Shown here: positions 4,474-48,480 of the stretch, piece by piece
Layout of the letters: the number at the start of each line of letters is the position of its first letter
Numbering within the stretch: position 1 is the first letter of the stretch
NCBI GenBank assembly: GCA_030524175.1
Contig: JAUNHC010000040.1
Location: 1-48,480 of the forward strand
Reading direction: 5' to 3'
Source: Eubacteriales bacterium
GTDB taxonomy: Bacteria; Bacillota; Clostridia; Lachnospirales; Lachnospiraceae
DNA: 48,480 nt
Translations under genes and position numbers: made by a program
Notes under the pieces: generated by a model
Seen by the model: the letters and a program-made list of their open reading frames with translations, nothing else
Databases searched by the model: none
What the model was told of the DNA's origin: nothing

Positions 4474-5328
4474 TCAAAAAATACTCATAATAAGCTTTGC
4501 CGCCCCATTAAAAAGAATACAAAAAACAATCCCTGCCGCAGTAGGCAATGCTGCTGCCAAGGCGGTCCATCTAAGACTTTGTGTCTCTTTTTTTATTGTA
4601 AGCAAGGTTGTGGAACAGGGCCAGTGCATTAAGGAGAATAACATGGTGCTTACTGCTGTCACCCAGGTCCATCCGTTTGCAATGAACAGCTGCTTCATTT
4701 CTACAAGGCTATCCATTTCCAAAATACTTCCCTGGGCCATGTATGCCATAATGATAATGGGGATTACGATTTCATTGGCGGGGAATCCCAGAATAAAAGC
4801 CATTAAGATTACTCCGTCTAATCCCATAAGCCTTCCCATGGGATTTAGAAACTCCGCACAATGATTCAGCACACTTACATTTCCTATTTTTACATTAGCC
4901 ATGAGCCAGATGATCATTCCTGCAGGGGCTGCCACAGCCATGGCACGGCCCAGTACGAAAAGAGTTCTGTCAAAAACAGAGCGTACTATCACTCTGCCCA
5001 CCTGGGGTTTCCTGTAAGGAGGAAGTTCCAGGGTGAAGGAGGAAGGGACTCCCTTGAGTACTGTCTTGGACAAGAGCTTCGTGGCTCCAAAGGTCATAGC
5101 AATCCCAAGGAGTATCACCCCTGTTAAAAGTACCGCAGACATCACAGAAGAAAAAGTGCCTCCTGAGGTTCCTATAAAAAACATGGTGAGTATTGCGATG
5201 AGCGCAGGATATCTTCCGTTACAAGGAACAAAACTATTTGTCAGTATTGCCAGAAGCCGTTCTCTTGGGGAATCAATGATCCGGCATCCTACAACACCTG
5301 CAGCGTTACATCCGAAGCCCATGCACAT
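4474..5328 (-). pseudogene. feoB: feoB, 3' half (separated by the prophage)
   Basis: Encodes the C-terminal membrane part of the ferrous iron transporter FeoB: CMGFGCNAAGVVGCR at the junction, SPRERLLAILTNSFVPC, several hydrophobic segments, LGFPANEIVIPI and HWPCSTT, ending naturally at 4474. These are conserved gate-domain motifs of FeoB. The upstream half is on the other side of the prophage. The frame runs 24 codons into phage DNA to an ATG at 5400 but has no good ribosome binding site, and a terminator lies within that stretch. Probably silent in the lysogen; restored on excision. Confidence 0.93.
5321..5328. other. attL core (feoB 3' side)
   Basis: ATGCACAT is present here and again at 47684-47691. 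Left of the core is feoB, right of it is phage DNA. Joining the left host side to the right host side through one core copy gives ...KQALTMCMGFGCNAAG..., an intact FeoB frame, which fixes the crossover to these 8 bp. Short identity is normal for large serine integrases. Confidence 0.88.
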
Positions 5329-5349
5329 GGTCAGTGTAATTCTGCAAAA

Positions 5350-5382
5350 CAAAAAAACTCTAAGATTAGTCTTAGAGTTTTG
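5350..5382. terminator. Terminator at left phage end
   Basis: A 12-bp perfect stem, AAAACTCTAAGA (5354-5365) and its complement (5370-5381), around a 4-nt loop. Read leftward it is followed by a T run. It would stop phage transcripts before they enter the feoB 3' half. Confidence 0.75.
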
Positions 5383-5525
5383 CTTTATGGCACAATGCAT
5401 TTGCGGTCAGGTACTTACCTACCTAATAATGATTATATCAGTCCGAATCGCCAAAATCAATACATTTTCAGGGTATATCTTTATAATTCTTTTATAATTT
5501 TTTCCTTCAAATTGTCATTTTCATA

Positions 5526-9517: not shown

Positions 9518-9954
9518 AATAAGCCTCCTTCCATTAATTCCAGCGTGAAGCTGTCAATCAATTGGTGATCGTGTGCAAGCTGCTCTAAGGTAGGTTCACC
9601 GGCGCTGTCGTAATTAAGATACTTATCCAAGTCAGCCAATATTTCCTCTTCGGTCAACTCGTAGACTGTTCGGAATTGGTTTCCGTCATACTGGTAGAGG
9701 ATATTCCCTGTTGGTAGTTCTGGCACTTCTGGTTCCGGCTGTTCTGGTTCTGGTGCTTCCGGTTCTTCGGGCGCCTCCGCCGGATCTTCTATGGCTGCTT
9801 CTTCTACTGGCGGTTCTGGATTTTCCGGAATTGGCATTGTTAGCGGCTCCACGATCACCTGCTCGTTGGTTAGCACCGTTACATCCCGTTTCCCGTCCGG
9901 GAGGAGAGTCACTGTCACTGGTGGCATTTTTGAGGTATACAACATTTTTTCCAT
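9514..9954 (-). CDS. Hypothetical protein with Pro/Glu-rich linker
   Basis: 146 residues from ATG 9954 (AAGGAG 9 bp upstream). A folded-looking N-terminus (PVTVTLLPDGKRDVTVLTNE) is followed by a strongly acidic Pro/Glu repeat (residues 45-82, EPEAPEPEQPEPEVPE) and a C-terminal part (QYDGNQFRTVYELTEEEIL). It overlaps 269 bp of the reverse transcriptase reading frame. No catalytic motif. Its position between tail/DGR and lysis genes suggests a virion or assembly accessory. Confidence 0.75.
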   Translation of the reverse strand: MEKMLYTSKMPPVTVTLLPDGKRDVTVLTNEQVIVEPLTMPIPENPEPPVEEAAIEDPAEAPEEPEAPEPEQPEPEVPELPTGNILYQYDGNQFRTVYELTEEEILADLDKYLNYDSAGEPTLEQLAHDHQLIDSFTLELMEGGLL

Positions 9955-11077
9955 TGCTTATCATCTCCTTGCATAATTTATTGATCTCATCTGCTTTGTT
10001 CCGCTTTCTCCAGTGCTTACACTGGGCGTTGGTCAGCCATCCACTCAAGCTGACGATACGTTTTGCCTGCCTTTTTGTGATTTTCCCAGTCTTTTTGACC
10101 GTAGTTATGGCCTTGCGGTATCTCCGAAAGATACGCGGCCGAACGATAAATTTGTCCCTGGATGCTATAAATCCCATCATATCAATGTAGCCTGTGCGCA
10201 GGTCAATATACTCATCACCGGACTTGATCTTGATCTCCAGGTTGTCCCAGCACCACGATCGGAATTCCTTGACCGCTAGTTTAAGGTCTTTTAGGCTCGT
10301 GGCAATAAACAGAATATCATCCATGAATATCATCACATGCATGACCAGCCTTACGCGCACGGCCAATCCATCCCGGCGCTTACGGGTTTTATAGAGCCGT
10401 TCGGTCGCATGGTGATAGGCAAATGACATATACAAGTTTGCAAGATACTGGCTTAAGTATGATCCGATTGACAGACCTACTTCAAAGGTATCAATCAGCG
10501 CAAACACCAATTTCAACAGCAGGCGATTGTTCACATACCGTTTTAATATCGCTTTCAGTTTGCGTATATTGATATTCTCATAATAATGGCGTGCATCGCC
10601 TTTCCATGCGTATCGCATCTTGCGGTTGCTTATCCACTTTTTGACTGTTTTTGCCCCTGACAGCGGGCCTTTATTTTTCAGCGATGCGAACTGATAGTAT
10701 CCTATCTTTTTCCGCAGCAGTTCTTCCAGGCCGATCACCGCAACGTAATCGTAGAGCTGCTGCTTGATATTCTGGATTCCGATACGGCGGAGCTTGTCAT
10801 TCTCTCTGCGCCATGTGTACCAGATGGATTTCCAGACAAAGCGTTCGTTCCGGATTTCTTCCTGCATCCCATCAATGATCGTTTCAATGATTCCATTGAA
10901 CATCCAGCATTGATGCGATTTTGCGATATCTTTTAAAAACTGGTATGGCAACCCCGAATAATCCCGGAATATCTGCAATGTATCCCGGCGGCCCATCTTA
11001 TCCTCCAGACATTGGCGAACCGCTGAGGATATTAAATCTCTATCTGTTATATCAACGTTTTTACAGTATTTTTTCAT
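9686..11077 (-). CDS. DGR reverse transcriptase
   Basis: About 463 residues from ATG 11077 (an upstream start at 11152 is possible; neither has a clear ribosome binding site). RT motifs: DARHYYENINI (first catalytic Asp), GSYLSQYLANLYM with the SQ that marks diversity-generating retroelement RTs, and FMDDILFIATS (FxDD in place of YxDD). It copies the template repeat with errors at adenines and directs the cDNA into the variable repeat. It lies directly downstream of the template repeat and target gene. No Avd-like accessory gene is visible. The last 89 codons overlap the Pro/Glu-rich gene and encode an Arg/Ser/Gly-rich tail that may be only a by-product of overlap. Confidence 0.93.
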   Translation of the reverse strand: MKKYCKNVDITDRDLISSAVRQCLEDKMGRRDTLQIFRDYSGLPYQFLKDIAKSHQCWMFNGIIETIIDGMQEEIRNERFVWKSIWYTWRRENDKLRRIGIQNIKQQLYDYVAVIGLEELLRKKIGYYQFASLKNKGPLSGAKTVKKWISNRKMRYAWKGDARHYYENINIRKLKAILKRYVNNRLLLKLVFALIDTFEVGLSIGSYLSQYLANLYMSFAYHHATERLYKTRKRRDGLAVRVRLVMHVMIFMDDILFIATSLKDLKLAVKEFRSWCWDNLEIKIKSGDEYIDLRTGYIDMMGFIASRDKFIVRPRIFRRYRKAITTVKKTGKITKRQAKRIVSLSGWLTNAQCKHWRKRNKADEINKLCKEMISNGKNVVYLKNATSDSDSPPGRETGCNGANQRAGDRGAANNANSGKSRTASRRSSHRRSGGGARRTGSTRTRTAGTRSARTTNREYPLPV

Positions 11078-11259
11078 CGTTTCTATCGTCGAAGGAGTTT
11101 CGGCTTTTCTACTAATCCCGGCATGCCCCAATTCGGGCATGTCCCTACTCACGCCGCCGCGTTTTCGGTCCCCTGCTCTTTCTTATTTAAGTGTTGTTTT
11201 ACAACAATCCCCTTTTCGGGGACGGAATGACGTGCTATACAATAATAAAAATAGAAATA

Positions 11260-11351
11260 CAAACCGCGTAGTTCCACCTGGCGTTCGAGAGGCCGTTCCT
11301 GCCATTCAGGTAAGACAAACCAGCATTCGCACCGTTCCTGAGGTTCCCGCG
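11260..11351 (-). repeat. DGR template repeat (TR)
   Basis: 92 bp nearly identical to 11537-11628. In coding orientation it would read NLRNGANAGLSYLNGRNGL..., rich in AAC codons as in known TRs. Of 19 adenines on this strand, 8 are replaced in the variable copy; only one other difference exists (T to C, silent). It lies in the non-coding gap between the target gene and the RT gene. Confidence 0.95.
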
Positions 11352-11433
11352 CGCACGTCAAGCCCTAGTGAGGATAAAATCCGCACTTTTATCGCTTGCT
11401 ATTTTCTTACAGTTTCAAAATCATAGGTAGCAT

Positions 11434-11523
11434 GTTCTGCTACGGCTAAGCCGCAGCAGAACTAATTAAAGCCCTGTAGAGGGGAAGCCCCCTCTTGCTT
11501 CGCAATTCACCCCTAGCAGGGCT
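11434..11523. other. Two hairpins downstream of the variable repeat
   Basis: A hairpin at 11434-11462 has a 13-bp stem (one G-T) and a 3-nt loop. A larger inverted repeat at 11470-11523 has AGCCCTG / CAGGGCT ends. DGRs carry hairpin or cruciform elements just after the variable repeat that help target recognition; the second could also terminate the tail transcript. The assignment is by position. Confidence 0.65.
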
Positions 11524-11529
11524 TCGGAC

Positions 11530-13062
11530 TTAAACGCAAACCGCGCAGTTCCACCAGGCGATCGAGAGGCCGTTCCCGCCATTCAGGAAGGACAAACCAG
11601 CATTCGCACCGCTCCCGAGGCTCCCGCGTGATAAGTGTTCTCTCAATCCAATGCTGTCACCACCAAAATAATACCGGTCGCCTGTACCGGATGCACTACC
11701 ATTTCCGATGGTCCGGATCATATGCGCACCAGTTTCCAGGTCTACATTTATTTCTCCGATCCAAATATCAGCCGAACCAGTGCTCGTGAACTCACCAATC
11801 TTTTTCCAGGTGTTCTGGAATGTAGCAAGGTCAGTTGTATAATCAGCTCCTGCTTTGGCGTAAAATATGGTCTTTTCGGCGGTCTCCTTATACATGACCT
11901 CATTACTGGATACCATGTAAGCACCGATGCTATCTTCCACGCCCTGAAGTTTATAGGAATGTCTATTATCCGTATTCGAAGTCATGGAGCCATCATTTCC
12001 CAGCACAGAATCCGTCTGGCCGGAATACAACGGCATGGTCGATATGTAAGAGGTGGCGGTCACTATCATGGATGGCGCATCTACGTATACTCTGCTGTAG
12101 GTAGCGTCAACCGCCTCTACCTTTGTGATCATCACCTTGTCAGCAAGATTGCGCATATAAGCATTGCCGCGGTCAATGTTCGTATTGGCAACGGGATCGC
12201 CAATTGACACCACACTGCCAATCAGGAAATTTGCAGCCTGGGCCTTGGTCAGCACCACATAATTCCCTGTAGATGCCTGGGAGACTTTGTACTGGTAGCT
12301 GTAATTGGTATATCCGGCAAATATCTTTTGGCTGGATGATGTGGCGTATTTGATCCGCAGCATCGTGATCAGGAAAATACTTCGCTCAGATCCGGAACCC
12401 GTATAGCCGGCTCCTTTCTTTTGCATAGCTGTGCGGAGCGATTGATAGGAAGTAAAGTTGCTTACCGGCAGCCCAGAGGAAGAGTAAAATACCCCGTCAA
12501 TCGTGCCGGCGTAATACTTGGTTATGATTCCATACGGCAGAGGATTGCCCTTGGCATCTTTACAGTGCGGCATCAGTACAAGTCCCAGTTCCGGGTGTGG
12601 AGAGTCGGACAGATGCCAGATCTCTCCGTCTGATACCTGCTGAATCCCATAATATAAGGGCGGTGTCAGTACACCAACATCTACCTTGCCGGTGCGGCTG
12701 AATCCGCCCTGTCCATCTATATAGGTAGGGATTTTTACCCCTGCGTCATTGACAATAAAGTTGCAGTCCGTAAACCAGAATGCATTGTATGGTGCAAAGT
12801 CATCGCGGCCTTTCACAGTGTCCGTGGACGGTTCGCAGGTTTTCCCTACAGAATCATTAAGACGTTCTCCGATGACCGTATCTGATACGGACTGCTTATA
12901 AAATTTGGTGCTAAATACCTCTCCTGTGGCCCTGGAAGAAAAGTAGGCTCCCCAGTCCAGCGACTGTGCATTAAATATACCGGCATCTATCCGGCGTGTG
13001 TAATCCAGGATCTTATCCAGGGTGGGCTTGTCAGCGATTTGTAATACTTTGTTCCGTTTCAT
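11530..13062 (-). CDS. DGR target: variable receptor-binding tail protein
   Basis: 510 residues. The N-terminus (KVLQIADKPTLDKILDYTRR) probably attaches to the tail. The C-terminal part (RYYFGGDSIGLR...NGLSIAWWNCAVCV) is the C-type-lectin-like fold used by DGR target proteins, with the variable residues clustered in the last 32 positions. It should be the host-receptor adhesin whose binding surface the retroelement diversifies. It is preceded by the large tail fibre gene (2-bp gap). Confidence 0.9.
   Translation of the reverse strand: MKRNKVLQIADKPTLDKILDYTRRIDAGIFNAQSLDWGAYFSSRATGEVFSTKFYKQSVSDTVIGERLNDSVGKTCEPSTDTVKGRDDFAPYNAFWFTDCNFIVNDAGVKIPTYIDGQGGFSRTGKVDVGVLTPPLYYGIQQVSDGEIWHLSDSPHPELGLVLMPHCKDAKGNPLPYGIITKYYAGTIDGVFYSSSGLPVSNFTSYQSLRTAMQKKGAGYTGSGSERSIFLITMLRIKYATSSSQKIFAGYTNYSYQYKVSQASTGNYVVLTKAQAANFLIGSVVSIGDPVANTNIDRGNAYMRNLADKVMITKVEAVDATYSRVYVDAPSMIVTATSYISTMPLYSGQTDSVLGNDGSMTSNTDNRHSYKLQGVEDSIGAYMVSSNEVMYKETAEKTIFYAKAGADYTTDLATFQNTWKKIGEFTSTGSADIWIGEINVDLETGAHMIRTIGNGSASGTGDRYYFGGDSIGLREHLSRGSLGSGANAGLSFLNGGNGLSIAWWNCAVCV
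11537..11628 (-). repeat. DGR variable repeat (VR)
   Basis: The last codons of the target gene, ending 5 bp before its stop codon. Compared with the template, the eight adenine changes are all amino-acid changing: N to S, R to G, N to S, Y to F, R to G, N to I, R to W, Y to C. The GC-rich end next to the stop, shared with the template, would be the initiation-of-mutagenic-homing region. Confidence 0.95.
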
Positions 13063-43267: not shown

Positions 43268-43417
43268 TCAGGCGGTTTTCTCCTCTGCGTTTTGTTTTGG
43301 ATTGTGTTCATCTACAATCCGGTAGAACATTGCTGTCTCATCTGATCTGGGTATATGTATATCTGCTGGGTTTGTGTAAACTTTACCATCACGGGTTTTT
43401 ATGATTACTGTTGCCAA
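43268..43417 (-). CDS. Small early protein, 49 aa
   Basis: TTG start at 43417, 5 bp after GGAGGTGG. It reads ATVIIKTRDGKVYTNPADIH then DETAMFYRIVDEHNPK. It is the first early gene beyond the reversed DUF4393 gene. Function unknown. Confidence 0.6.
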   Translation of the reverse strand: MATVIIKTRDGKVYTNPADIHIPRSDETAMFYRIVDEHNPKQNAEEKTA

Positions 43418-43472
43418 TAAAACCACCTCCTTAGTTATGGTATGCATTTTTGCTTGTCTGGGTTCCTTCCTA

Positions 43473-43501
43473 TTGATTTTCAATATTTGTCTGTCTATAA
43501 T
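43473..43501 (+). promoter_or_regulatory. Promoter of the DUF4393 gene
   Basis: TTGATT (43473-43478), 17 bp, TATAAT (43496-43501). It points away from the early operon and would start RNA near 43508, 31 bp before the chosen start codon. Confidence 0.75.
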
Positions 43502-43538
43502 GTACTTACAGGCTCCTATCGGAGTTGAGTATGAACGA

Positions 43539-44330
43539 ATGGAGTTGATTGAAATTAACCCAATTATCCCAGATGAAACCAAGCATCAATTTTATAAGGA
43601 TGCCATCCATCCTTCTGCAAAAGAACTTGGTAAAACACTATCTCTCGTTCCCCGTTTAGTAAACACTATAATATCGCCTCTTGAAAAATACATTTATACT
43701 AAAGAATGTAATATTCAATACACAAAAGATTTAATTGCTGAAAAAATCAAAAATCAGAATCCAGAATCACTTGTTGCGCCCGAGCCATATGTTGCCGTCC
43801 CCGCCTTAAATGCAATTTCCTACTCAATGGACAACGACCAGCTCAGAGACATGTACGCTAATTTATTAGCCAAATCCATGATAAAAGGTACTCGATCCCT
43901 TGTTCATCCTTCTTTCGTTGAATGCATAAAACAAATGTCTCCTTTAGATGCAAAGTTGTTCCACCATTTAGCTCATACGGAATTCACAGGTCTTATAGAC
44001 TTAATTGCTGTGGAAGAGTATGATAAGGAACTGGGTATGTATTCGTCCTATGAAATTTTAGAAACTAACATATCAGGTCTCGATTTATCGGATCATCAGC
44101 TTCAAAGTGCATCCTTTAATTTACTAGAACGCTTAGCATTTATTAAAATATCCCAAGATGTATTGGCTGATAAGTATTGTTATTCTAGAATTTTGCTATC
44201 ACGCGAATACAAACATTTAGCGAAACTACATAGTCACTTGCGTACAGAAAACCAGGAAAAATTATTTAATATAACAGACTTCGGAAAACTGTTTATTAAA
44301 ATATGCCTTGATGATGCAATTCCCGAGTAA
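43539..44330 (+). CDS. DUF4393 / Abi-alpha protein, probable phage-exclusion cargo
   Basis: 263 residues from ATG 43539; earlier in-frame starts lie within or upstream of the promoter -10. The family pattern is clear: NPIIPDETKHQFYKDAIHPS then AKELGKTLSLVPRLVNTI, LVAPEPYVAVPALNAISYSM and LRDMYANLLAKSM. DUF4393 is also named Abi-alpha because some members cause abortive infection. It has its own promoter and is reversed relative to the surrounding early genes, as cargo genes expressed in lysogens often are. Leftward lytic transcription would run antisense through it. Confidence 0.85.
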   Translation: MELIEINPIIPDETKHQFYKDAIHPSAKELGKTLSLVPRLVNTIISPLEKYIYTKECNIQYTKDLIAEKIKNQNPESLVAPEPYVAVPALNAISYSMDNDQLRDMYANLLAKSMIKGTRSLVHPSFVECIKQMSPLDAKLFHHLAHTEFTGLIDLIAVEEYDKELGMYSSYEILETNISGLDLSDHQLQSASFNLLERLAFIKISQDVLADKYCYSRILLSREYKHLAKLHSHLRTENQEKLFNITDFGKLFIKICLDDAIPE

Positions 44331-44736: not shown

Positions 44737-44765
44737 ATTATATTTCTACTTAGTAGATTTGTCAA
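44737..44765 (-). promoter_or_regulatory. Leftward lytic promoter with palindromic operator
   Basis: Minus strand TTGACA (44765-44760), 17 bp, TATAAT (44742-44737), both perfect consensus. The spacer contains the perfect palindrome TCTACTTAGTAGA (44745-44757), the likely CI operator. A related sequence TATCTAGTAA occurs at 44778-44787, between this promoter and that of the repressor, and again at 45528-45537. Confidence 0.88.
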
Positions 44766-44798
44766 GTTGTTTTTTGGTATCTAGTAACATTTTTGTGA

Positions 44799-44849: not shown

Positions 44850-45236
44850 GTGACGGTAAACGAAAGGATTAAATATCTCAGAAAACACGTACTTCATTTA
44901 ACGCAAGAGGAGCTTGCGCCTCAGATAAAAATTAGCCGTTCTAATTTAGGCGCGATAGAAATAGGTAGGGTAAAAGCCACTGATAGGGTTATCGAGGATT
45001 TATGCGAGAAGCACGATGTTAATATTGATTGGTTACTCAAAGGAGAGGGGGATCCTCTACGGGAAAAAACAAGAACTGAAAAAATAACAGATTTTGCCGC
45101 TGACATATTAAAAGACGAGGAAGAATCTTTCCGCAGACGGTTGATAGAGGCGCTTGCTGATTTGGATATCGAAGAATGGGAATTGCTTGAAAAAATAGCT
45201 GAAAAGGCTTCTAAAAATAAAAAAGCTAGGCAGTAA
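44850..45236 (+). CDS. CI-like repressor without peptidase domain
   Basis: 128 residues from GTG 44850 (AAAGGAGG 8 bp upstream). The N-terminal HTH_XRE domain is clear: RIKYLRKHVLHLTQEELAPQ then IKISRSNLGAIEIGRVKATD, ending DWLLKGEGDP as in many phage repressors. The C-terminal 55 residues are acidic and helical. There is no S24/LexA-type peptidase domain, so it should not be cut by RecA-stimulated self-cleavage. Predicted to hold the divergent lytic promoter shut. Confidence 0.88.
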   Translation: MTVNERIKYLRKHVLHLTQEELAPQIKISRSNLGAIEIGRVKATDRVIEDLCEKHDVNIDWLLKGEGDPLREKTRTEKITDFAADILKDEEESFRRRLIEALADLDIEEWELLEKIAEKASKNKKARQ

Positions 45237-45246
45237 CACCTAGCTT
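45223..45246 (-). terminator. Terminator between repressor and convergent small ORF
   Basis: AAGCTAGG (45223-45230) and CCTAGCTT (45239-45246) form a perfect 8-bp stem covering both stop codons. On the minus strand it is followed by TTTTTATTTTT; on the plus strand the T run is weaker. Confidence 0.8.
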
Positions 45247-45341
45247 AACAATCTTTTAATGAATCTTGATATTATTTTTAATTTATCATAATCAGAAATA
45301 CTGTTAATTAGCGCTATAATCTCATTTTTCATTTTTTCCAT
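45240..45341 (-). CDS. LexA-box-controlled 33-aa ORF, possible antirepressor
   Basis: Starts at ATG 45341 after GGGAGGGCGTAC and ends at TAG 45240, 3 bp from the repressor stop, convergent with it. The peptide (MEKMKNEIIALINSISDYDK, ISRFIKRLLS) is amphipathic and has no signal peptide. It forms a complete small unit: a LexA-box promoter about 60 bp upstream and an intrinsic terminator at its end. Because the repressor lacks a self-cleavage domain, an SOS-induced antirepressor peptide would explain induction. That role is inference; the RNA itself could be the active product. Confidence 0.6.
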   Translation of the reverse strand: MEKMKNEIIALINSISDYDKLKIISRFIKRLLS

Positions 45342-45366
45342 ATGTACGCCCTCCCAGTTCAAATAG

Positions 45367-45447
45367 CAAACACACGTTCGAAATTCCTTACGTTTATGAT
45401 ACTACGGGAAGCGGGAAAAGGCAATAGGAAAATCAAACATTTGTTCG
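45367..45447 (-). promoter_or_regulatory. LexA-regulated promoter with two SOS boxes
   Basis: On the minus strand CGAACAAATGTTTG (45447-45434) and CGAACGTGTGTTTG (45380-45367) each match the Gram-positive SOS box CGAACN4GTTCG with one change and fit the clostridial GAACN4GTTT form. Between them is TTGCCT (45424-45419), 17 bp, TATCAT (45401-45396). One box lies above the -35 and the other just after the start of transcription. Confidence 0.8.
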
Positions 45448-45658
45448 TTTTGTTTTTACTTACCCGAAAATGTATTATATTTTCATTATATCATTAATAC
45501 ATTTATTGTCACTGGAAAAGATTTCCATATCTAGTAAATATTATAATAATTTTTGTTTAATTATGAATTTATAGCGACTTTTCAGACGTATTGCACAAAT
45601 ATATTTTGTTTCAAGGACTATTGTGCCTGAATTTTCGTTAAATTTCAACAGATATGAA

Positions 45659-46204: not shown

Positions 46205-46246
46205 ACAGCCTGCAAGCGGAACACAAGTTCGCTGGCTGTTATTTTT
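46205..46246 (+). terminator. Terminator upstream of the integrase gene
   Basis: ACAGCC (46205-46210) pairs with GGCTGT (46234-46239), with further inner pairing (GCGGAAC with GTTCGC), then TATTTTTATAC. It separates the zinc-ribbon gene from the integrase. A GC-rich hairpin at 46116-46145 without a T run precedes it. Confidence 0.7.
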
Positions 46247-46286: not shown

Positions 46287-47663
46287 ATGAATGAAACAAT
46301 TCGCTGTGCCTGTTACGTCAGGGTGTCAACAGAAAATCAGCTTGATAATTTTAGTGTCGAGGAACAGATCGACCGGCTGACAGCTTACTGCAAGGCAAAA
46401 GATTATCCAATCGTTAAATTTTATACTGACGGCGGTTACTCTGGCGGAAACCTGAATCGTCCTGCTCTACAACAGATGCTGGATGATATTAATAAAAAGT
46501 ACATTAACATGGTCATTGTTTATAAGCTGGACCGGCTTTCACGCAGCCAAAAGGATACCTTATCTTTAATTGAGGATTCCTTCCTTGCAAACGGAGTGGA
46601 CTTTATTTCGCTGAACGAAAACTTTGACACCTCCACGCCTGTTGGCCGGGCCACCATCGGTATGTTGTCCGTTTTCGCGCAGCTTGAAAAGGACCAGATC
46701 ACTGAGCGTTTTACAATGGGGCGTGTTGGCCGGGCCAAGAGCGGTCACTTCCACGGTGGTGCATACGCACCAGTCGGTTACGATTATGTCGATGGGGAAT
46801 TGGTTGTCAATGAATATGAGGCCCTGCAGGTGAATGATTTATACGAAAGGTTTGTAAAGGGGTATCCTCTGCATGATTGCTGGCGATATATGCAGTCAAA
46901 GTACAAAACCAAATATGGGGAGTGGTCTAGCGAAACCCTTGTAAGGAATGTGCTAAAGAATAAGGTATACATTGGGTATGTCCAATTTCAGAAAAAATAC
47001 TATAAAGGTGTTCACCAGCCAATTATAACTGAAGAACTTTTCCAGGCAGCACAAAATATATTTAAAACTGCCAAACGTGATCAGCCTTCCTTCAGGCGGT
47101 CCCCTTTTAAGGCCAACACGCTCCTGTCTGGACTCATTTATTGTGGTAACTGTGGTGCGAGGTACCACGGCGAACACGGGAACTATTCTTGTTACAGTCG
47201 CACTAAAGGTGATAAGAAGCAAATAAAAGACCCGTCATGCAGAAATAAAAAGTGGAAAATAGAAGAACTAGACAAGATTGTTGTTGAATATATATCGGCT
47301 TTGAACTTTGATGAGAGCAGTAAAAAACAGCGGAGCAAGCCAAGAAAGAAGGACTATAGCCATCGTATCAGTGAAATCGAGCGCCAAATCTCTAACCTGA
47401 TTGATTTGTACCAAATAGGAAGCATTCCAATGGATACTATATCCTCTAAAATAGATGCTCTCTCTCAAGAAAAAAGTACCCTCATTGCTAAGTCAGAACC
47501 AGATGATCAAAACGCCCCTACCAGCACTGAGAAATTACAATTCAAGGAACAGTTTATTTCTCTTCTGGATGGCGGTAGTCTCCAGGAAAAGCGTGCTTGT
47601 TTAGCCAACTTGATTGACAAAATAATCATAACAGAAGAACACATAGAAATCCTTTTAAAATAG
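46287..47663 (+). CDS. int: Large serine integrase
   Basis: 458 residues from ATG 46287 (AGAGAGGTGATACG upstream). The catalytic domain starts RCACYVRVSTENQ with the nucleophile Ser at residue 14, then KLDRLSRSQKDTLSLIE and GMLSVFAQLEKDQI. A recombinase domain follows, then a zinc ribbon (CGNCGARYHG...CYSR...CRNK) and a C-terminal coiled coil (ISEIERQISNLIDLYQ). It cuts attP and attB with a 2-bp stagger and joins them in one direction; excision needs a directionality factor not identified here. Its stop is 20 bp from the attR core. Confidence 0.95.
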   Translation: MNETIRCACYVRVSTENQLDNFSVEEQIDRLTAYCKAKDYPIVKFYTDGGYSGGNLNRPALQQMLDDINKKYINMVIVYKLDRLSRSQKDTLSLIEDSFLANGVDFISLNENFDTSTPVGRATIGMLSVFAQLEKDQITERFTMGRVGRAKSGHFHGGAYAPVGYDYVDGELVVNEYEALQVNDLYERFVKGYPLHDCWRYMQSKYKTKYGEWSSETLVRNVLKNKVYIGYVQFQKKYYKGVHQPIITEELFQAAQNIFKTAKRDQPSFRRSPFKANTLLSGLIYCGNCGARYHGEHGNYSCYSRTKGDKKQIKDPSCRNKKWKIEELDKIVVEYISALNFDESSKKQRSKPRKKDYSHRISEIERQISNLIDLYQIGSIPMDTISSKIDALSQEKSTLIAKSEPDDQNAPTSTEKLQFKEQFISLLDGGSLQEKRACLANLIDKIIITEEHIEILLK

Positions 47664-47683
47664 ATTGCAGATATACACACTCT

Positions 47684-47691
47684 ATGCACAT
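47684..47691. other. attR core (feoB 5' side)
   Basis: Second copy of ATGCACAT, with phage DNA on the left (20 bp after the integrase stop) and feoB on the right. See attL at 5321-5328. Confidence 0.88.
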
Positions 47692-48480
47692 AGTCAATGC
47701 CTGTTTTCCGCATGCACAGCAGCATTTGAAGGGTTTGTCAAGATTGTAGGCAATTCTGGGCAAGTAGCCGGCATCTTCAAGAAGTGTAAAGAGCGGAAAG
47801 AAAATTGCCATGGGTGGGAGCATAACGGATACTACCCACGCCAGTACTCTGTACACGCCGAGAACAAGGACGCCGTGAAGCCAGGACGGAGCATGTAAAT
47901 AAGTAAAAAAATCAGTCAGACGGTCCTGTATCCAGAATAGTCCGTCTGCAAGCAGCCTGGAAGGATAATTTGCGCCGGCAATAGTAAGCCAAAATATAAA
48001 TGCAAGCAAAAGCAGCATAACAGGGTATCCGGTACTTTTACTTGTTAAAATGCGGTCTAGTCTGAAATCAAAATTGTTATAATTTTTGTCAGGATAAATC
48101 ACTGCGTCTCTGCAAATTTTTTCCGCAGAATTGACAAGTTCTGACACAATAAGATCTTTGAGATCATCTGCACCTATGTTGCACTGTGCAAGGAATTCCT
48201 GTGCTGCCAGGAGTTCCTTATTTAAAGATTCGTCCTGGAGAAGATTTTCTCCCAGATAAGCAGATACCTCTCTGATAAGTGTTTCATCCTGCTCCAACAG
48301 CTTAAGGCAAAGCCAACGGCTAAACTTTACATCTTTGCATTTCCTTAACAGGATGGGCATAATCCGCTCAATGGCCTTTTCCACCGGTTCCGGATAAACC
48401 ACAAGATATTGACCTTTTGAATCAATCTGCCTTGGATACGATTGGTTTTGATACAGCTGCTTTGCATGAGGCTGCTTTGG
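47692..48480 (-). pseudogene. feoB: feoB, 5' part (runs off the window, cut by the prophage)
   Basis: The frame is open from the right window edge, so the GTP-binding domain lies outside. Visible are the helical region after the G domain (AIERIMPILLRKCKDVKFSR), SKSTGYPVMLLLLAFIFWL, APSWLHGVLVLGVYRVLAWV and FTLLEDAGYLPRIAYNLDKP up to KQALTMC, all typical of FeoB. Phage DNA then adds 20 foreign codons (starting IECVYLQ) to a stop at 47626, antisense to the integrase end. The truncated product would lack the second gate and the C-terminal membrane segments. Confidence 0.95.

Follow-up and report, generated by a model that had tools for sequence, protein, structure and literature searches.

The prophage described here raises the question of how a phage repressor without a protease domain can respond to DNA damage in its host. 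The window, a stretch of 48,480 nucleotides, is one whole contig (C68) of the 119 that make up a 5.95-Mb Lachnospiraceae genome, and it holds a prophage inserted in feoB, between the two halves of that gene (Table 1). The prophage encodes a terminase, an SPP1-type portal protein and, as read by eye, a long tape-measure-like ORF. Its immunity region consists of a 128-aa HTH repressor, a divergent promoter of perfect consensus with a palindrome, and a small transcription unit (hereafter micro-unit) convergent to the repressor gene. As the earlier note had held, the repressor has no S24 domain: only HTH domains exceeded the Pfam cut-offs, and no S24 or M78 peptidase was matched on the contig at E<=0.001, the five M78 matches of the genome all lying on other contigs. 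A RecA-cleavable (S24) CI repressor and an ImmR/ImmA (M78 protease) switch were thus ruled out, so that the two best-known routes from damage to repressor are missing.

We consider it probable that the micro-unit supplies another route, in which an SOS-induced SinI-like microprotein forms a heterodimer with the oligomerisation hairpin of the non-cleavable repressor, unpairs the repressor and thereby triggers lysis. In the lysogen, host LexA on the two promoter-flanking boxes would keep the micro-ORF off, and the non-cleavable HTH repressor, joined by its C-terminal two-helix hairpin, would silence the divergent lytic promoter. Upon DNA damage, RecA-stimulated self-cleavage of LexA would allow transcription of the micro-ORF, the 33-residue product of which would fold into a two-helix hairpin of the kind found at the repressor C-terminus and heterodimerise with that C-terminus; the repressor dimer or oligomer would be broken up, the operators vacated and the lytic genes started. 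We infer the binding of the peptide to the repressor, its antagonistic direction and the induction of the prophage, starting from what sequence comparison establishes about the anatomy of the unit, its LexA motif, its coding status, its conservation beside the repressor class, its profile likeness and its hairpin-specific co-divergence.

Every part previously described for the micro-unit was found in the sequence, namely two LexA boxes, a promoter with a 17-bp spacer, a ribosome-binding site, a 33-aa ORF, a terminator and a gap of 3 bp between the end of the ORF (45240) and the repressor stop codon (45234-45236). The promoter (TTGCCT-17-TATCAT, 45424..45396) agrees with the consensus at 9 of 12 positions and is flanked by both boxes, and the terminator overlaps the 3' end of the repressor gene. 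On the other side of the repressor gene, the palindrome within the divergent promoter is a candidate operator by its position; it is present in a single copy and is not enriched over shuffles. The sequence TATCTAGTAA, found exactly at 44778-44787 in the repressor-lytic intergenic region and at 45528-45537 upstream of the micro-unit, is possibly a second operator class, its frequency being near chance level once one mismatch is allowed.

Table 1. Coordinates of the prophage borders, the immunity region and the micro-unit in the window.
Feature	Position	Strand	Remarks
FeoB_C half of feoB	4477-5400		
Divergent (lytic) sigma-70 promoter TTGACA-17-TATAAT	44737..44765	-	Perfect, 12/12
Palindrome TTCTACTTAGTAGAT, candidate operator	44744..44758	+	By position only: between divergent -35 and -10
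128-aa HTH repressor, GTG start, without peptidase domain	44850..45236	+	
Repressor C-terminal helical hairpin, codons 89-127, proposed peptide target	45114..45230	+	Helices 92-103, 107-127
Intrinsic terminator of micro-unit	45213..45246	-	10-bp stem 45246-45223 and T tail
33-aa micro-ORF, stop codon included	45240..45341	-	Predicted two-helix hairpin, putative antirepressor microprotein
Shine-Dalgarno GGGAGGG	45349..45355	-	7 nt 5' of ATG at 45341
Proximal LexA (SOS) box CGAACGTGTGTTTG	45367..45380	-	Motif; class -31 to -41 recurs in relatives
-10 TATCAT of micro-unit promoter	45396..45401	-	17-bp spacer
-35 TTGCCT of micro-unit promoter	45419..45424	-	
Distal LexA (SOS) box CGAACAAATGTTTG	45434..45447	-	Motif; relatives have boxes in the same class, -91 to -105 from start codon
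Large serine recombinase of prophage	46287-47660		
FeoB_Cyto half of feoB	47629-48402		

Binding of LexA to the micro-unit boxes is suggested by their motif. The LexA consensus of Bacillus subtilis is CGAACRNRYGTTYC, from which each of the two boxes departs by 1 mismatch. The window contains 3 sites with at most 1 mismatch to this consensus (0.47 expected; 3 reached in 0 of 100 shuffles), 2 at the micro-unit and 1 at 46218-46231. A looser pattern, GAACNNNNGTTY, was not enriched in the window (4 matches vs 2.4 expected), and the exact match of the boxes to a strict pattern, CGAACRNRYGTTYG, is partly circular, because that pattern was fitted to the micro-unit sites, its last letter having been chosen after they had been seen. 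Genome-wide, the strict pattern was not enriched either (2 matches vs 5 for its backward control), and LexA patterns were no commoner than their backward controls. The GAAC-N4-GTTC core of the micro-unit boxes is also present at host recA, where CGAACATAGGTTCG directly follows the -10 element, and at host uvrB, which has GAACATACGTTC in its upstream region, and the sites of the motif upstream of host lexA are degenerate. The third LexA-like site of the window, CGAACTTGTGTTCC (46218-46231, minus strand), has a perfect GAAC-N4-GTTC core, lies 56 bp 5' of the serine recombinase start and doubles as a weak terminator-like hairpin; SOS control of excision could be exerted through it. Elsewhere in the host genome, locus L124 carries LexA-like boxes at 1501 and 1827, around a short HTH-like ORF and 5' of a long ORF without an assigned function.

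Relatives of the repressor were gathered from 397 genomes of the family, viral contigs, named genome contigs and phage records (8 of the 31 phage matches were retrieved), with matches in 28 of the 397 genomes, its own included. Among the 89 loci analysed (repressor alignment in 87), 81 are distinct, and 40 of these have a counted convergent small ORF, picked by eye, with its end at -4 to +58 bp relative to the stop of the repressor gene in 39 cases and at -30 in L116. These 40 micro-ORFs were chosen among the convergent ORFs and supplied the seeds of later profiles; seven peptides (L049, L054, L056, L070, L079, L099, and L106) are trimmed or have an uncertain start. Copies are present in Blautia phage Montmirail, where the product is annotated as hypothetical (WAK79206.1), and, unannotated, in Butyrivibrio phage Arawn. 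Omission of L048, L075, L110, and L115, which are repeats or near-copies of counted loci, left 37 comparison loci, which still contain 5 (L068, L078, L084, L093, and L119) with displaced or overlapping micro-ORF copies. HicAB toxin-antitoxin genes separate the repressor from the micro-ORF in L068, L084, and L119, the orientation still being convergent; L084, the HicA of which falls below the Pfam cut-off, and L119 retain two LexA boxes. In L113 (-663..-489) and L093 (791..1031, both relative to the repressor stop), the gene opposite a family micro-peptide is, as judged by eye, another HTH-like one, which suggests that the pairing extends to other regulators.

Of 392 genomes of the order searched with the peptide profile alone, 26 gave matches, 36 in all, with the own genome and window included. 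We read 29 of these peptide-first loci, 28 of them distinct (L157 repeats L131). The peptide is convergent with a repressor of matching profile in 19, within 50 bp in 17, two of the 19 (L129 and L148) being repeats of the first set and several being mutually close kin; in 9, one of which lies at a contig end, such a repressor is absent within 1.2 kb. What had appeared to be a lone micro-unit is, by both counts, a widespread module. Beyond its own genome, a phylum-wide peptide search matched 3 of 398 genomes, each match lying inside a long frame and probably due to chance, and a search of the phage collection gave one match (E=8), which by its coordinates is the L068 copy beyond the HicAB genes.

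The LexA motif recurs with the module. The 6.8 kb 5' of the 40 micro-ORFs contain 30 boxes vs 14 in the 180 kb that form the rest of the same loci, a conservation across loci that excludes chance. At least 1 strict box lies within 170 nt 5' of the start codon in 22 of the 40, and a box is found within 300 nt 3' of the repressor gene in 22/40 micro-ORF loci vs 1/37 others (Fisher p=2e-7), the repressor frame of that single comparison locus, L089, looking broken off. Two boxes are present in 8 of the 40 loci, with a spacing of 57-69 nt in 7 of the 8. With a position weight matrix derived from four sites of the host (one each of recA and uvrB, and two of lexA that are degenerate and were selected by eye), 20 of the 40 loci score above the 95% background level (2 expected) and 7 above the 99% level (0.4 expected). 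A strict box is missing from 18/40 micro-ORFs and is present in only 8 of the 28 distinct peptide-first loci, so that SOS control is not visible everywhere. We also count against the proposed SOS trigger the report on the prophages of C. clostridioforme LM41, in which mitomycin C and fluoroquinolones gave no induction (PMC11318856), an objection that would apply if those prophages carry the module.

The probable target of the peptide emerges from comparison with the repressor itself. AF2 models the peptide with helices at residues 2-13 and 18-32 (pLDDT 94) and the repressor C-terminus with helices at 75-86, 92-103, and 107-127 (mean pLDDT 86). When the profiles of 57 peptides and of 57 repressor C-termini were aligned with each other (HHalign, local mode), the probability was 82.6 and the score 22.1, with 30 columns aligned and an identity of 7%; NEIIALINSISDYDKLKIISRFIKRLL was paired with RRLIEALADL-DIEEWELLEKIAEKAS. 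The reversed peptide profile, by comparison, reached a probability of 4.6 (score 11.8), none of 100 column shuffles exceeded 3.0 (score <=11.0), and alignment of the peptide with the DNA-binding domain of the repressor gave 0.1; in global mode, the probability for peptide and C-terminal domain (CTD) was only 13.2, at a score (21.1) similar to the local one. A hidden Markov model of the peptide (15 seeds) scored single repressor CTDs above their shuffles but not above their own reversals (p=0.18); hence, the hairpin claim rests on the profile-profile alignment, and the amphipathic pattern alone explains part of the likeness. The peptide profile matched six sequences of the PDB, none meaningfully (best E 0.14), and Foldseek matched no chain to the peptide model. 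Structure matches listed for the repressor model cover mainly residues 1-68, so that the CTD fold is barely sampled, and include SinR (1b0n_A), via the DNA-binding domain only. Remote as the likeness is, the peptide resembles the C-terminal hairpin of the repressor in detached form.

Peptide divergence tracks that of the repressor CTD and not that of its DNA-binding N-terminal domain (NTD). Mantel tests on 57 pairs gave r=0.45 for peptide and CTD (p=0.0005, the lowest value that 2000 permutations allow) and r=0.03 for peptide and NTD (p=0.33); the corresponding values for the 40 pairs are 0.41 (p=0.0005) and 0.05 (p=0.28), and the CTD correlation holds on thinning to 53, 46, and 37 pairs. Along the repressor, the correlation is about 0 for segment 2-61, rises to 0.25 for 62-75 and 0.38 for 75-88, peaks at 0.48 for 89-104 and amounts to 0.35 for 105-122. 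Physical linkage could partly cause the co-divergence, the CTD codons being nearest to the peptide gene; against linkage alone stand the position of the peak, off the segment nearest to that gene, and the maintenance of the pairing across insertions. NTD and CTD distances are mutually uncorrelated, so that the repressors look like domain mosaics. A natural domain swap in genome G554 (L135 and L154) combines NTDs of 51% identity with CTDs and peptides that are 100% identical, and the converse pair, L036 and L106, has NTDs of 75% identity, CTDs of 29%, and peptides of 13%. In view of the profile likeness and the co-divergence, the C-terminal oligomerisation hairpin is a likelier target than displacement of the repressor straight from its operator, as had been proposed before.

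Co-divergence and hairpin likeness suggest association of the peptide with the CTD but not the sign of its effect. An SOS-induced hairpin might instead join the CTD as a co-repressor, stabilising or re-tuning the repressor and so delaying or limiting induction, and the small protein gp7 of phage GIL01 enhances LexA binding (PMC4551915). We regard such an effect as improbable, since SinI-type hooks that share residues with their partner repressor abolish DNA binding (PMC3163267), and since with a stabiliser under LexA no SOS route to the repressor would be visible in this phage, neither S24 nor M78 having been found and the one remaining good LexA-like site, at 46218-46231, preceding the recombinase. 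Of similarly low probability is a different job for the micro-protein during the SOS response, as a small toxin, an excision factor or a host-takeover factor that merely travels with the repressor cassette. Linkage could produce the co-inheritance, some copies have no neighbouring repressor of matching profile, and no Pfam, PHROG or NCBIfam match assigns a function: the window peptide has no family match above cut-off in these collections, and the Arawn relative has a weak match (E=0.0013) to a PHROG that is uncharacterised. A passenger of this kind would nevertheless have to account for the profile likeness to the repressor hairpin itself, for a divergence that tracks the CTD and falls to zero at the DNA-binding domain, and for a pairing that is kept across insertions, all of which speak against it.

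Between the antirepressor peptide and the regulatory RNA offered by the earlier note, the peptide is best supported and the RNA disfavoured. Compared with its nearest relative, L031, the window peptide has a pS of 0.94 and a pN of 0.19, which matches the repressor of the same two loci (0.86 and 0.18) and indicates equal purifying selection; the ORF is thus a gene. Constraint is weaker in the peptide pair of L110 and L112 (pS 0.16, pN 0.06, from 4 and 5 changes). A Shine-Dalgarno-like motif precedes 30 of the 34 untrimmed starts, with GGAG or GAGG in 23. The test of whether relatives keep the boxes while the ORF is not conserved therefore came out for the peptide. That the ORF is incidental and an SOS-induced convergent transcript interferes with the repressor gene, by antisense overlap or by collision of polymerases, would suit the convergent layout, the terminator inside the repressor 3' end and the overlaps or short gaps, but is the least probable reading given the selection at the amino-acid level, the ribosome-binding motifs and hairpin pattern common to the peptides, the persistence of the ORF with 380-407 bp or HicAB genes between it and the repressor, and an efficient-looking terminator that would end the transcript at the repressor's end.

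The closest precedent of the proposed repressor antagonism is SinI-SinR of B. subtilis. Residues 74-111 of SinR form a two-helix oligomerisation hook, SinI has a related hook at residues 3-39, and the SinI-SinR heterodimer does not bind DNA (PMC3163267). Both systems have an HTH repressor with a C-terminal two-helix hook, predicted in our case, and a small antagonist, here putative, related to that hook, the relatedness here being remote and weak in global mode (13.2). Unlike SinI, which is chromosomal and under Spo0A control, the micro-ORF belongs to a prophage, is 33 aa long, has LexA boxes and is convergent with the repressor gene. The SinI model of Pfam (PF08671) had no match listed for 18 members of the family, HMMER filters dropping most matches with E above about 0.1, and its 8 matches in the genome were sub-threshold, with 0 on the prophage contig; membership of the SinI family by Pfam was accordingly rejected. 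The Gifsy antirepressors GfoA, GfhA, and GftA are small, directly LexA-controlled and act on non-cleaved repressors, GfoA and GfhA each on heteroimmune ones (PMC3121763). With these, as with Tum of phage 186 and AntC of N15, the micro-unit shares a repressor without a self-cleavage domain and LexA boxes, by motif, at the promoter of a small putative antirepressor gene. The Gifsy-type proteins are larger, Tum with 146 aa being nearly twice the size of GfoA and GftA, are encoded outside the immunity region and, in the available text of the report, show no hairpin homology to their repressors (PMC3121763).

A non-cleavable HTH repressor with a helical-hook CTD is known from phage TP901-1 of Lactococcus, whose helical CTD1 dimerises and whose synthetic peptide 90-125 multimerises alone (PMC4941734); the C-terminus of our repressor is predicted to contain helices 92-103 and 107-127. 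For TP901-1, induction is reported to depend on RecA "through unknown mechanisms" (PMC11149083). Mor, the antagonist in TP901-1, is an HTH protein of 72 aa (PMC11323111) that binds the NTD of CI (PMC11149083) and thus differs from an SOS-controlled hairpin; the annotated gene layout differs too, and no gene comparable to the micro-ORF is annotated near cI. In the Qtip and TF-smORF modules of vibriophages, the cI repressor is inactivated by small proteins of the phage (PMC10432266, PMC11323111); unlike the micro-unit, these are SOS-independent, are encoded divergently from the transcription factor gene and reportedly lack homologues, Qtip having 79 aa. A small antirepressor of arbitrium phages (PDB 9IAQ, 2026), controlled by peptide communication, shows that the field is moving close. 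Among the matches listed in the open-access literature, a scope outside which most subscription papers and all preprints fall, no report of such a module was found. The expectation that a 33-residue antirepressor would be new has to be qualified: the principle is precedented by SinI-SinR and Gifsy, and shortness alone is not novelty. The micro-unit would combine SinI-type hook antagonism with LexA control, each already known; what appears new is that the peptide family aligns with the C-terminal helical hairpin of the repressor itself.

It is an evenly balanced possibility that many prophages of Lachnospiraceae and related gut Clostridia are induced in this way by detached hairpin copies of about 30-40 residues, the DNA-binding domains being swapped while the hairpin-microprotein pair is kept, and heteroimmune prophages being woken together. 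If domain swaps change immunity and leave one pair in place, heteroimmune prophages within one cell would have a single antirepressor specificity in common and would respond together to one SOS pulse. For the response of Gram-positive repressors without a protease to DNA damage, the module offers an explanation open to testing, a concrete, small, and transferable mechanism in gut bacteria, where prophage induction is poorly understood. Very short genes of this class can be missed by annotation, as the Arawn copy was and the Montmirail copy was not, and predictors of prophage induction would have to take them into account. The natural domain swaps could serve to map the specificity of the repressor-microprotein pair.

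Two further features of the prophage were noted. An Abi_alpha-like abortive-infection protein (PF14337, E=1e-41; 43401-44330, plus strand) adjoins the lytic side of the immunity region. At 9686-13062, the prophage contains a candidate diversity-generating retroelement, with an RVT_1 reverse transcriptase (9686-11152, minus strand) and a 97-nt direct repeat, 89% identical between 11255-11351, the candidate template, and 11532-11628, the candidate variable repeat, which lies at the 3' end of a 510-aa ORF (11530-13062, minus strand).
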